A model generated the notes under the pieces. The model did not search any database. It saw nothing but the letters and a program-made list of their open reading frames with translations, and was not told where the DNA came from. DNA of 64,000 nucleotides from Glaciimonas sp. CA11.2. Lineage in GTDB: Bacteria; Pseudomonadota; Gammaproteobacteria; Burkholderiales; Burkholderiaceae_D. Position 1 is the first letter of the stretch. Each line of letters begins with the position of its first letter. Shown here one piece after another: positions 4,725-48,168 of the stretch. The stretch is taken from NCBI RefSeq assembly GCF_034314045.1, contig NZ_JAVIWL010000001.1, forward strand, positions 4,960,001 through 5,024,000, written 5' to 3'. The position numbers were made by a program, and so were the translations under genes.

Positions 4725-4839
4725 GGATACTTCCCTTTAGCATTCTGAATTCAGATGTTATTTGTTGATTTTTGTTAGGTCTATTGCGTGCAGGGTAAAA
4801 CAGGCATAACGTCTACATTATTGCCGCTTTCGGCTCCGG

Positions 4840-4860
4840 GTACTAAGTACTGAGTACTAG
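4840..4860. repeat. Short GTACT-containing repeat between efflux genes
   Basis: Three GTACT words sit within 21 bases of the 187-base spacer between the outer-membrane factor and adaptor genes. Their role is not known. The spacer holds no gene. Confidence 0.4.
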
Positions 4861-4911: not shown

Positions 4912-6441
4912 TCAATCTTCTTTAATAGGAACAGGCAAGGTCACCCCTGTGGACGCCGCTGCCAACGTGGCGCGATTCCACCAGCCGCCGCCAAGCGCCT
5001 GAAACAACGCGGCGCTGTCGGCATAACGTGCCGCTTGCGCCTGAACCAACCCGACTCTCGCCTGTTGATAAGTGCGCTGTGCGTCGAGTAGCGTGAGATA
5101 ACTAATTGCACCAAGCTTAAATTGTTGCGTGCTCAGGTTCAAAGATTCCCGCGACAGGGATTCGACTTCGGCCTGTTGCTTCAGCGTCGATGCGTCTAAA
5201 TCTAACGCTCGCAGTGAATCCGCCACATTTTGAAATGCAGTCAGCACGGTTCCGCGATAATTCGCCGCAGCCACATCGTACGCAGCAATCGCCGCCCGCC
5301 GTTTGGCGGTCAGTGCGCCACCATTAAAAATCGGTTGAGTCAGTCCTGCGGCCAAACTCCAAATCGCCGCACCGCCAGTAAATAGCTTAGGAAACTCAGT
5401 GGCAACCGGACCATAACTTCCGGTCAAATTGATTTGTGGATAGAGATTGGCGGTGGCGACACCAATTTGCGCACTGGCCTGGTGCAGCAAGGCTTCGCTG
5501 GCGCGAATATCCGGTCTTTGTCGAACCAGCGCCGATGGTAACGATACCGGCATTTCTTGTGGCAGTTGCAACGATCCCAGATCGAATTCAGACAAACCCG
5601 CTTCGCTTGGAAGCTTGCCCGCGTAGACGGATAATTGGTTACGCGTTAAAGCTAATTTTTTTTCAAGCGGCGGTATCGTCGCGCGCGTCTGCGCGACCGT
5701 ATTGCGCTGAAGCAGAATGGTCGAACGCGCGATAGCACCAAGGCTGAACTGTTTCTCAATCACGTCTAACTGCTGCTCTTGTGCCTTGAGTATCTCGCGC
5801 GTAGCCTGAAGTTGAGCCCGCAATGAGGACTCCTGAATCGCGGTTGTCACCAAATTTGATGTCAGGGTCAAATAGGTCGCTTCTACCTGAAACTGTTGAT
5901 AGTCAAGACTAGCCTGCAGCCCTTCCAGCTGACGACGGTTAGCGCCGAATACATCCAACGTGTATGACACGTTGACTGAAGCGTTATACAAATTAAAAAT
6001 TCCTGAACCTTGGCTGTTTAGTGGACTAGCCTTCTCACGCGTAGCGCCAAGTTGGCCGGAGACACTAGGAAAAAGCAGACTGCCAGTTTGGGCGCGCAAA
6101 TTTTCCTGTGCTTCACGCAACGAAGCTTGGGCAGAAGCCATGCTTGGACTACGTTTAAGCGCGTCACGAATCATTTGATCAAGCGCAGCAGATTGAAAGA
6201 GTGACCACCATTGTGCCGGAATATCTTGCCCAATGGAAAAACTCTGTGCAATCCCTGCAGGACCGGGCGCAGCGTCAGTTTGTTGCGGAAGCGACGTCGG
6301 GGTGTAATGATCACCAACGTCAGGTACATCGGGGGCCTTGAAATCAGGACCCACGGCACATCCGGCGAGCAGCAGCAACATAGCCACACTCAACCGTGCA
6401 CGCGCAGTCAGATAAGAACCTCCGCTTATGTGCTGGCGCAT
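4912..6441 (-). CDS. Efflux outer-membrane factor lipoprotein (NodT/OprM family)
   Basis: This is the trimeric outer-membrane channel of the tripartite efflux system. The lipobox (AMLLLLAGC) gives a lipid-modified Cys at residue 28 from the chosen ATG at 6441. The reading frame is open to 6573, but the upstream starts (6507, 6573) would give leaders of 50-71 residues, so 6441 is preferred. The mature part begins VGPDFKAP, the typical NodT opening, and contains two OEP repeats, each an alpha-helical hairpin plus beta-strands. It is first in the operon OMF-adaptor-pump; a TetR gene diverges from it. Confidence 0.92.
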   Translation of the reverse strand: MRQHISGGSYLTARARLSVAMLLLLAGCAVGPDFKAPDVPDVGDHYTPTSLPQQTDAAPGPAGIAQSFSIGQDIPAQWWSLFQSAALDQMIRDALKRSPSMASAQASLREAQENLRAQTGSLLFPSVSGQLGATREKASPLNSQGSGIFNLYNASVNVSYTLDVFGANRRQLEGLQASLDYQQFQVEATYLTLTSNLVTTAIQESSLRAQLQATREILKAQEQQLDVIEKQFSLGAIARSTILLQRNTVAQTRATIPPLEKKLALTRNQLSVYAGKLPSEAGLSEFDLGSLQLPQEMPVSLPSALVRQRPDIRASEALLHQASAQIGVATANLYPQINLTGSYGPVATEFPKLFTGGAAIWSLAAGLTQPIFNGGALTAKRRAAIAAYDVAAANYRGTVLTAFQNVADSLRALDLDASTLKQQAEVESLSRESLNLSTQQFKLGAISYLTLLDAQRTYQQARVGLVQAQAARYADSAALFQALGGGWWNRATLAAASTGVTLPVPIKED

Positions 6442-44292: not shown

Positions 44293-44327
44293 AAAAAAAA
44301 GCCCGCATGACCTTTCGGTTGCGGGCT
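44293..44327 (-). terminator. Rho-independent terminator reading leftward
   Basis: AGCCCGCA (44300-44307) pairs with TGCGGGCT (44320-44327), and on the minus strand the stem is followed by eight T. No minus-strand gene lies upstream for at least 400 bases, so it may end a lost transcript or act as an attenuator before lysE. Confidence 0.75.
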
Positions 44328-44817
44328 GAATCCAAACCTTTGCGGTGTTGGAGGAGACAGCTAAACTTTAACACAAAAATGGTGCGGTGCAATATGGTAA
44401 AAATACGGTAGTGCCAATTGCCTAACCATAACGCGGACTATGCGGGGCGCTGTTTCAATCTGGCGTGGGGTACAAATACCCTAAAAATGGCGATGGGCCT
44501 TTTAGAATTATGATTTATTCTAGATCGAAAAAAACAACAATGCGTATAAAAAACTGCAACAATTCATTTCCTTGTCGCAAATAATATTAAAAAATCCATT
44601 GATTCAGATTGCTTTTCACCTTTGCTGACACTACGATAAATCAAATGCGTGCGGATTCTGCAACCCAAGACGAGCGCGTGTAAGTCTGCAATCAATGATT
44701 CAGAGAACGATAGACGAATGATTGCTCTGATCGTCCTATTTCTTGATACAGCATCGCTTAGCGAGGCTTTTCACTGCACTAAAACCGCCCGCTCCCACAC
44801 CCGATCTGGAGATTATT
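44328..44817. other. Non-coding stretch, likely element debris
   Basis: About 490 bases with no supported gene. It contains a GGAGGAGACAG word shortly after the terminator and AT-rich sequence to 44640. Composition differs from the flavoprotein gene that follows. I see no clear promoter. Confidence 0.35.
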
Positions 44818-45888: not shown

Positions 45889-46012
45889 GGTTGGCTTTAT
45901 TGGACGGCGTTTGCAGCTTACAAACGATTCAGCGGAATCTTGCTCTAAAAGTTTGCGCTTGATGGATATATCCGCTATCGTCTGCTGGTCTCCGAGAAAA
46001 AGGAGAACGGGT

Positions 46013-46063
46013 TTGATCGCTCGACAATGTACAAGGCGCACAACGGCGCAATGCCGTTTTTTT
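46013..46063 (+). promoter_or_regulatory. First target site of the C4 RNA plus intrinsic terminator
   Basis: TTGATCG (46013-46019) and GTACAAGG (46029-46036) are complementary to two segments of the C4 RNA downstream. Right after them, CGGC-GCAAT-GCCG (46044-46056) is followed by seven T, an intrinsic terminator; an outer 7-bp pairing (46037-46043 with 46062-46068) includes part of the T-run. The layout matches the upstream a1/b1 target copy of phage P1/P7 c4 systems. Confidence 0.65.
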
Positions 46064-46090
46064 GTGCGACTTTCCTTCGCTCGTCCTTAA

Positions 46091-46170
46091 TGGGCGGTGG
46101 TGGTGGGGATACCTTCGGGTATGCCGGTATCCTTGTACGCCGGTCGATCAACCTTATCATTTACCGCCCA
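46091..46170 (+). ncRNA. C4-type antisense RNA
   Basis: An 80-base structured RNA. The outer stem is TGGGCGGT/ACCGCCCA (46091-46098, 46163-46170). Hairpin 1 is ATACC-TTCG-GGTAT (46109-46122). Hairpin 2 is GCCGG/CCGGT (46123-46127 and 46140-46144), its loop carrying TCCTTGTACG (46130-46139). After it comes CGATCAA (46145-46151). The loop segment pairs with CGTACAAGGA (46200-46209), which contains the ribosome site of the next gene, and CGATCAA pairs with 46177-46183. This is the a'/b' against a/b logic of c4 antisense RNAs (P1, P7, P4). Confidence 0.82.
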
Positions 46171-46210
46171 CCCCGTTTGATCGCGGGGCGCGGTCTAACC
46201 GTACAAGGAA
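46171..46210 (+). promoter_or_regulatory. Second C4 target site, covering the ribosome site of the small ORF
   Basis: CCCCG-TTTGATCG-CGGGG (46171-46188) is a hairpin that shows the b target TTGATCG in its loop. The a target CGTACAAGGA (46200-46209) contains the AAGGA ribosome site seven bases before the ATG at 46217. Binding of the C4 RNA would hide this site and block translation. Confidence 0.7.
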
Positions 46211-46216
46211 TCAATA

Positions 46217-46339
46217 ATGTCTAGTACCGTCACATTTACTACCCCCCACTTACAAATCACGCCACGCCTTGCCCACCAAGCCAGCGCCCGTTTCATTCAA
46301 ACGATTGCCGCTAACATTATTGGGAGGATCCAATCATGA
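46217..46339 (+). CDS. Small 40-aa protein under C4 control
   Basis: A short frame (MSSTVTFTTPHLQITPRLAH...) begins seven bases after the C4-target ribosome site AAGGA and stops at TGA overlapping the next ATG (ATGA), so the two are translationally coupled. It has no recognisable domain; it could be a leader peptide that carries ribosomes into the next gene or a small effector. Support comes from the regulatory site and the overlap, not from homology. Confidence 0.6.
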   Translation: MSSTVTFTTPHLQITPRLAHQASARFIQTIAANIIGRIQS

Positions 46340-46665
46340 GCGATCCGAGCATGAATGATCCGTCATCGTCTCCAAAACCAGAGTCATTGCATCAAGCGTT
46401 TTCATGGTTACCGGCCCGCCATCAATCAGATGAGCCTGCGCAGTTTTATGCCATGACAAAGGATGTCTGCGAAGGTATTCAGACCTGTGTCGATTTGGCC
46501 CATTTCAGCATCATGGACAGAGATAGTGATACGACGCCAATGCTGAATGTGGACGACACGGATGGGTTGCTGTGCTTGGCGATAACGTCGTCTCAGATGC
46601 TGGCGCACATTGCTTCTCTGCGGATTGATGGGTTGGATGTGTGTGCGCGTAAGAGGCGTCAATAA
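46336..46665 (+). CDS. Hypothetical protein, DUF3077-like
   Basis: This 109-aa protein has a variable N-terminus and a second half (DTTPMLNVDDTDGLLCLAIT then SSQMLAHIASLRI) resembling DUF3077-type proteins of pseudomonads and relatives, whose function is unknown. It overlaps the small ORF by ATGA and would be controlled through it by the C4 RNA. No phage structural genes lie nearby. The domain call is from memory of the pattern and is tentative. Confidence 0.6.
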   Translation: MSDPSMNDPSSSPKPESLHQAFSWLPARHQSDEPAQFYAMTKDVCEGIQTCVDLAHFSIMDRDSDTTPMLNVDDTDGLLCLAITSSQMLAHIASLRIDGLDVCARKRRQ

Positions 46666-47355: not shown

Positions 47356-47770
47356 GATCTCAATGGCACGCGGTGGGCGGCCAAACCTTTTATAAATAAC
47401 ACTGTAAACACACATTTATCTATGACACCACGATCTGGCGTGTAATTTGCCCGCGTCGGCGAATTTATGCGAAAGACGTTTGTGTCACCTTCATAAAACG
47501 TTGAATGGGAATGCATTTGACATCTTAGCGCCATCCTTTAGTTTAGTTGCAATCTATGCAGCCACTCAGGTTGACGATGCACTATTTTTTGATCCGGTTG
47601 AGGACTTCGCTTCGTTGGCTGAGCAGAAATAGGCTAGGCTCAGGCAACATTGGGCGAGCGCACCGTATAGGTCAGATGGATAACTCAGGCAATTTAAACC
47701 TGCATCGTCAAAGTTAGCAAGATGCGTCAGATAGCTGCGCGGTACGCCCCAACAACAAGTGAGGTAAAAC
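47356..47770. other. Non-coding stretch before the VOC pseudogene
   Basis: About 415 bases. Short frames exist on both strands, but none has a ribosome site or recognisable product. The GAGG ribosome site of the VOC gene lies at its right edge. Confidence 0.35.
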
Positions 47771-48168
47771 ATGCTGGATCACATTTTTGTTTCGGTCAGC
47801 GACATGCAGCAATCAATCGCGTTCTACGAAAAACACTGATACCACTTGGCATTAGCCACGTGATTGACTACGACGGGGCCAAGGGACCTGCGGGCCATCC
47901 TGACCTGAAAGGCTTTGGCCGCGACGGCCGTGTATTCTTCTGGCTGCGGCACGGTACTGCAGATGCCCGCGCAATCCATGTCGGCTTTGTCGCCGATAGC
48001 GAACCGGTAGTGGATACGTTCTATGCTGCAGCCATCGCAGCAGGTGCTACCGATAACGGCAAACCTGGCGCTCGCCTCTACTACGACCCGCGCTACTACG
48101 CTGCTAACGTTTTCGATCCCGATGGTTACAGCCTTGAGGCGGTGTACAAGAGCTGGCAACACCCGTAG
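47771..48168 (+). pseudogene. VOC-superfamily (glyoxalase-like) protein, frameshifted
   Basis: From ATG 47771 (ribosome site GAGG six bases upstream) the frame reads LDHIFVSVSDMQQSIAFYEK and hits TGA at 47837. The next frame continues the family pattern without break: LIPLGISHVIDYDG, GRVFFWLRHG, HVGFVADSEPVVDTFYAAAI, FDPDGYSLEAVYK. One missing base after the A-run at about 47829-47833 explains it (GAAAAA-GCA would restore YEKALIPLG). Intact, it would be a ~132-aa glyoxalase/dioxygenase-fold protein. Confidence 0.85.

Follow-up and report, generated by a model that had tools for sequence, protein, structure and literature searches.

The window, a 64,000-nucleotide stretch of the Glaciimonas sp. 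CA11.2 genome, very probably holds, as judged from its sequence, a chromosomal C4 antisense RNA switch with the design of the P1 c4-icd-ant and Gifsy-1 isrK-orf45-anrP operons, which has been multiplied along the chromosome and re-addressed. C4 RNAs are best known as phage immunity switches. Here, the RNA belongs to a dispersed cassette of about 730 bp, formed by an isrK-like leader, a terminator, the C4 RNA, a short ORF, and a small gene, in which the order of the parts, their pairings and covariation, and the gene coupling are apparent from the sequence. The C4 model matched the chromosome of this strain (genome of 5.5 Mb in two contigs) 23 times, 22 of them above the cut-off. These findings support the interpretation of the first-pass annotation, which missed the 22 further copies with other addresses because it saw a single window.

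Organization of the window unit

All the parts of the unit lie on the + strand of the window. No promoter was found upstream by consensus scan, and the candidate -10 box recognized by eye (TATCGT, positions 45976–45981) is weak; many of the other copies have TATACT at that place. The isrK-like leader RNA (45988–46063) matches Rfam model RF01394 over its full length with 37.5 bits (E 2e-6), under the cut-off of 50, and holds the upstream pair of target sites, with the terminator at its end. This pair consists of the segment site TTGATCG (46013–46019), which is the exact complement of positions 46145–46151, and the loop site TGTACAAGG (46028–46036), which pairs with the C4 loop along 9 nt with one G-U. 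Between these sites and the C4 RNA, the intrinsic terminator (46042–46063) shows a 7-pair stem (46042–46058) followed by a T run, and the region folds so; the call alone is weak, with 3 such sites in 1 kb vs 1.2 expected, and the stem is also present in the aligned copies. The upstream pair had been described as lying beside a terminator, which is correct.

The C4 antisense RNA itself (46091–46170) had been proposed as an 80-base structured RNA, and a search with the Rfam C4 model had been suggested as a check. This search yielded a match to RF01695 above the cut-off (46086–46175, + strand, 67.8 bits vs a cut-off of 45, E 5e-11 when searching the window), complete from position 1 to 87 of the 87 of the model. 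The predicted fold contains the three C4 stems (-38.3 kcal/mol, z -2.41), and 3 out of 200 shuffled sequences folded equally well. Its loop TCCTTGTACG (46130–46139, b' in P1) is complementary to both loop sites, and its 3' segment CGATCAA (46145–46151, a' in P1) is the exact complement of both TTGATCG sites.

The second pair of targets lies downstream of the RNA, and it includes the segment site TTGATCG (46177–46183), again the exact complement of 46145–46151, and the loop site CGTACAAGGA (46200–46209), a 10-nt complement of the C4 loop. The latter overlaps the ribosome site AAGGA (46205–46209), ahead of the ATG at 46217 that starts, 7 nt past AAGGA, a short leader ORF of 40 aa (46217–46339). 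Both predictions made on these pairings, two complementary places for each of the loop and the segment and a downstream pair over the ribosome site of the 40-aa ORF, were confirmed, with exact segment pairing and loop pairing of 9 and 10 nt. The stop of this ORF overlaps as ATGA the start of a 109-aa gene (46336–46665), the member in this unit of a family named A1 here. This overlap had also been foreseen, but the DUF3077 (PF11275) identity assigned to the gene was discarded, as this domain is absent from the Pfam matches of 15 paralogues. Regarding names, the segment site had been called b, but the annotation of P1 gives the names a1 and a2 to the 7-nt segment sites (46013–46019 and 46177–46183 here) and b1 and b2 to the loop sites (46028–46036 and 46200–46209). 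The c4-a1b1 model did not reach its cut-off in the window (18.3 bits vs 46.7).

A hairpin at 46171–46188 (CCCCG/CGGGG) may display the downstream segment site in its loop, as the first-pass annotation put forward. Among 17 aligned copies, 89.9% of its cells are paired, but its covariation was equalled by 53 of 500 shuffles, and covariation was not significant for the hairpins that would display the segment sites.

No phage function was found among the five ORFs neighbouring the unit, in agreement with the earlier remark that phage genes do not flank it, and a visible prophage as the location of this copy was rejected on these grounds. One of the five, a LysE exporter, has a match to a PHROG without an assigned function and another, below the cut-off, to a holin model. 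Elsewhere in the window, a Betaproteobacteria_toxic_sRNA (RF02278) was located at 44293–44359 on the - strand (52.9 bits vs a cut-off of 50), one of seven matches in the genome, six of them above the cut-off. In addition, a glyoxalase-like gene at 47722–48168 (+) may be broken, as its start seems, by eye, to be in another frame.

Pairing words and their variation among copies

The 3' segment appears in 13 versions among the 23 copies. In spite of this variety, an exact match to the copy's own segment site was found upstream in 20/23 copies, downstream in 17/23, and at both sites in 15/23, vs 26/506 (upstream) and 22/506 (downstream) exact matches to the sites of other copies, which is about 5%. 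In 20,000 permutations, the downstream matches had a mean of 1.7 and a maximum of 8, vs the 17 observed, and chance complementarity was rejected on the basis of these comparisons and of the loop pairing sums given below. The segment word was picked by its pattern past the P3 stem, and where there were several candidates, that with the best match to its own sites was kept, a choice that favours own matches. Similar figures were obtained for the sister genome G004 (23/26 upstream, 21/26 downstream, and 19/26 at both sites, the word of the copy at 5041940 being assigned by hand) and for G001 (9/9, 8/9, and 8/9, respectively).

Covariation was counted on the columns of an alignment of 17 of the 23 copies, the exact-match counts above being the all-copy figures. 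In these 17 copies, 119/119 cells of the upstream segment pairing were paired, 35 of them changed on both sides, and 118/119 of the downstream pairing, with 34 changed on both sides; these values are favoured by the exclusion of L013, L015, L019, L027, L029, and L030, dropped for lacking a site or having a diverged one. Changes on only one side were limited to a single cell at the downstream site and none at the upstream one. None of 500 shuffles reached the observed number of both-side changes at either site, whereas two of the five measures of segment covariation (double-change pairs and further pair types) were met by many shuffles. The stems of the RNA, whose covariation had been proposed as a test of its identity, behaved in the same way in the 17 copies, with 96.1% of the cells paired and 11 pairs changed on both sides, a number reached by 0/500 shuffles, although the covariation of the target pairings is stronger than that of the stems.

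The loops and their sites co-vary like the segments, in a less sharp manner. Loop pairing sums exceeded all of 10,000 permutations at both sites in CA11.2 and G004 and at the upstream site in G001, whereas the downstream site of G001 did not exceed the permutation maximum. By loop score alone, the own site was the best target in 12/23 and 7/23 copies at the two sites. The mean duplex energies in CA11.2 were -21.8 and -19.1 kcal/mol for own sites vs -11.5 and -12.0 for those of others. On the basis of this simple duplex energy, the cognate RNA was the best partner for 16/23 upstream and 13/23 downstream sites in CA11.2, for 10/26 and 16/26 in G004, and for 6/9 and 6/9 in G001. Therefore, the addresses are real and insulation between copies is partial; full insulation was not established, as the cognate RNA is not the best partner at many sites.

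We also searched for pairs of copies having both words in common. None of the 614 within-genome pairs from the three genomes did, vs 3.7 expected by permutation. With the loosest loop criterion, the joint tail, calculated as the product of three permutation tails, was about 0.013, and stricter criteria gave about 0.035 and 0.12. Avoidance of both-word sharing within genomes is thus suggestive and not significant under all criteria, and selection for private addresses was not established, given this dependence of the joint tail on the criterion. Between genomes, 8 of 1039 pairs share both words, which may include orthologues.

Distribution, surroundings, and cargo of the cassettes

The number of C4 matches differs broadly among congeners: 9, 1, 2, and 26 in G001, G002, G003, and G004, respectively, 25 of the latter being above the cut-off. 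Any C4 match was found in 12 of the 60 genomes searched and in 24 of the 369 genomes of a class-level survey, CA11.2 being counted in both. The largest copy numbers in the other genomes of this survey were at least 10, 6, 6, and 4, which are lower bounds because up to 11 candidates were scored per genome. Tandem C4 pairs were seen at four places in G004 (L063, L078, L079, and L082), and four matches lie inside about 1.4 kb on a single contig of G320 (L142).

The sequence common to the 23 copies of CA11.2 spans from about -180 to +550 with respect to the C4 start (blastn, E ≤ 1e-6). When up to 5 kb on either side of each of them was compared by blastn, no shared flanks past the cassette were detected, save two short matches of L024 located 3.3 kb upstream. 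The genome contains 20 isrK-like matches, none above the cut-off, 17 of them directly upstream of a C4 RNA, two before A1 genes devoid of C4, and one beside a degenerate copy. The two C4-less loci with an A1 gene and an isrK-like leader (L105 and L106) may be units that lost the RNA. For the other 22 copies, the longest ORF per side within 2.5 kb was taken (44), and 40 of them were scanned, a selection in which small phage genes could be missed; 38 of these 40 had Pfam matches (E ≤ 1e-10), and apart from a transposase beside L010, they belong to ordinary chromosomal genes for enzymes, transport, signalling, and regulation.

Comparison with G004 revealed the window unit at the same place, past the FMN-reductase gene. 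The segment and both segment sites are unchanged in this orthologue. The loop and both loop sites have changed jointly, agreeing with one another in each of the two genomes, and the loop and the downstream loop site also differ in length by 2 nt. By contrast, the L017 unit is absent at the orthologous place of G004, where conserved flanks are separated by 146 nt vs about 955. Units have thus been both inherited and gained or lost. At the window locus of G001, the FMN-reductase gene matches, and the match stops at its stop codon. In the L017 region, a short dispersed repeat past an acs-like gene (at about 4758–4852 of that region) has matches in the four congeners searched (4/4).

Regarding the cargo, the first-pass annotation had suggested checking whether a C4 element precedes the homologues of the 109-aa gene, and the outcome was mixed. 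In CA11.2, 18 of the 23 A1 matches lie next to a C4 RNA (two of the five without C4 are fragments), and so do 20 of 25 in G004, where one of the 20 C4 RNAs stands upstream of another in a tandem and a single gene accounts for two of the 25 matches. In the five other genomes with a match, only 3/8 adjoin C4, compared by position. The distant relatives of A1 (33–37%), found in one Massilia contig and three viral contigs, have no C4 above the cut-off in those contigs. One of the viral relatives adjoins an int-alpA RNA and an ORF that we take to be AlpA-like. A phage or satellite origin of the units is likely.

The cargo also differs between units. A protein of 74–78 aa is found directly under C4 in two copies of CA11.2 and three of G004, and the cargo in G001 includes a family of 133–142 aa. 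In G010, from another genus, C4 is followed by DUF3077 as the first ORF and then by a relative of the 109-aa protein, and Rha is encoded downstream of C4 in G053. The short ORF varies in sequence and in length (20 to 60 aa), and the ATGA coupling is present in 15/18 A1 units of CA11.2, 17/19 of G004 (two with truncated A1), and 7/9 C4 copies of G001. In L029, a CCCAA tandem repeat (from about position 5131 of that region) replaces the short ORF, in frame with A1 and encoding PTQPN repeats.

The model of the 109-aa protein consists of two helices (residues 33–62 and 72–108; mean pLDDT 84.9). Its lone Pfam match, ELP6 (E 0.1), is under the cut-off. The 15 aligned A1 paralogues gave no Pfam match above the cut-off, which includes antirepressors of the Ant or Rha type as a possible second gene, and no NCBIfam, PADLOC, or PHROG match was found for the family. 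A PDB fold search with the model returned nothing at E ≤ 0.001, and the best E in a PDB sequence search was 0.11. There was no match in the phage records searched, and the 16 in the plasmid records all had E of 0.6–0.9. The G001 cargo gave nothing useful when sought in viral contigs, and only E 0.0086 was obtained with defence models, for this same cargo.

Possible mode of action and relation to known systems

Transcription, processing, the direction of the leader effect, and the function of the cargo are here inferred. C4 RNAs are, as a class, processed by RNase P to about 77 nt. Transcripts reading through the terminator would be cut to free the C4 RNA, with its 5' end generated by RNase P, as in P1. 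The RNA would then pair with the downstream sites, blocking the short ORF, and as this is not translated, the coupled 109-aa gene would not be translated either and would probably be lost to Rho polarity. Since the C4 RNA and its cis sites hold the same address, each copy would be silenced mainly by its own RNA. The terminated leader, which has this address too, could let C4 enforce termination, as the P4 CI RNA does at seqA; alternatively, it could titrate C4 and thereby lift repression, as has been considered for IsrK and STnc1160.

It is plausible, even if we lean against it, that control takes place mainly at the upstream pair, with C4 favouring the terminator on the nascent leader and the block of the ribosome site being secondary. 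The segment site is exact more often upstream (20/23) than downstream (17/23), the terminator lies directly past the loop site, and the P4 CI RNA is described as acting in this way (PMC4825925). In addition, L015 and L019 have kept the upstream segment site and lost the downstream one, and the mechanism in these two copies cannot be a translation block. However, the ribosome site lies under the downstream pair, whose covariation is equally tight in the 17 aligned copies. The same exact, covarying cis sites, present in most copies, would not be maintained by trans-targeting alone, which makes it hardly probable that the copies regulate other bacterial mRNAs in trans, the role put forward for the C4-like RNAs in Acinetobacter baumannii, even though the loops here vary between copies and the authors of that study judged bacterial targets a potentially likelier role (PMC5320573).

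We consider unlikely a module resembling RNA toxin-antitoxin systems, in which the small coupled protein would harm the cell and C4 would be the antitoxin. The first ORF under C4 in P1 is icd, annotated as an inhibitor of cell division, and private addresses would stop antitoxins from neutralising other copies; however, A1 has neither a Pfam match above the cut-off nor a match to defence models, its predicted structure is a simple two-helix hairpin for which the PDB fold search gave nothing at E ≤ 0.001, and the cargo varies between genomes. Decay is visible in the degenerate copies L027 and L030 and in the 5/23 A1 matches without C4, two of them fragments, and the remote relatives that the 109-aa protein has in three viral contigs, one of them next to an int-alpA RNA, are what remnants of P4-like satellites or prophages could leave. 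That the units are merely decaying, functionless relics is nevertheless very unlikely, as most copies in three genomes retain both the three-way covariation and the ATGA coupling. The reading that we favour is thus that of a C4 switch multiplied and re-addressed within the chromosome.

P1 and P7 silence their own kind. If addresses are private, a resident would silence a copy having both words in common with it, and only new word combinations would stay independent. We propose tentatively, as a somewhat doubtful extension, that the Glaciimonas units are mobile RNA-switch cassettes diversifying under such private-address selection, giving about two dozen partly orthogonal switches with exchangeable cargo. 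In any case, the 23 copies, most of them with matched cis targets, represent a natural experiment on the evolution of antisense specificity, in which pairing words, two targets, and gene coupling lend themselves to comparison among paralogues and between sister species. They also supply collections of natural RNA switches that are already partly orthogonal, offer a way to read the C4-like RNAs of Acinetobacter, and draw attention to a family of small proteins, predicted to have two helices, that merits testing.

Compared with the annotated P1 record, where the order is a1, b1, c4, a2, b2, icd, and ant1, the window unit has the same order. The P1 segment, CTGTCAA, matches its two a sites exactly, and this same word is found in 3/23 copies; the P1 loop is exact to b2 and not to the whole b1. 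In P1, ant1 starts in an ATGA at the end of icd, and the window ORFs likewise overlap by ATGA. However, the second gene in P1 is an antirepressor, whereas in CA11.2, 18 of the 23 C4 RNAs are followed by A1, a family without an assigned function, among ordinary chromosomal genes. The isrK-STnc1160-orf45-anrP region of Gifsy-1 resembles the window unit, as judged from its published description and the isrK model match, in having a terminated leader sRNA, an RNA after it, and a coupled short ORF (PMC4825925). There, orf45 and anrP are coupled, the terminated leader RNA is described as activating orf45, and STnc1160 as a stable processed RNA that may act as P4 CI (PMC4825925). Unlike the Gifsy-1 region, the window unit yielded no antirepressor and no prophage genes among the tested neighbours, and its isrK match is below the cut-off. 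The P4 CI RNA has targets up- and downstream of itself (seqA and seqC), as the window C4 does, a likeness by description only, and differs in that the regulation in P4 is by transcription termination (PMC4825925).

C4 and c4-a1b1 are both listed by Weinberg 2010 (PMC2864571). The terms antisense, prophage, and small RNA do not occur in the main text of PMC10618363, on Glaciimonas sp. PAMC28666, and a literature search covering titles and abstract openings, with few subscription papers, yielded no C4 arrays with cognate cis targets. In Acinetobacter baumannii, 21 loop-variable Group 1 C4-like RNAs are described in one genome, with RNA-seq suggesting processing and targets given as unknown (PMC5320573). 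The authors propose two antisense sRNAs and targets in trans, and the available text describes neither cognate cis targets nor operons downstream (PMC5320573). Multi-copy C4-like RNAs are already known from Acinetobacter (PMC5320573), and what seems to be new in Glaciimonas, as far as our literature search shows, is the combination of private cognate cis targets with a cargo other than an antirepressor.
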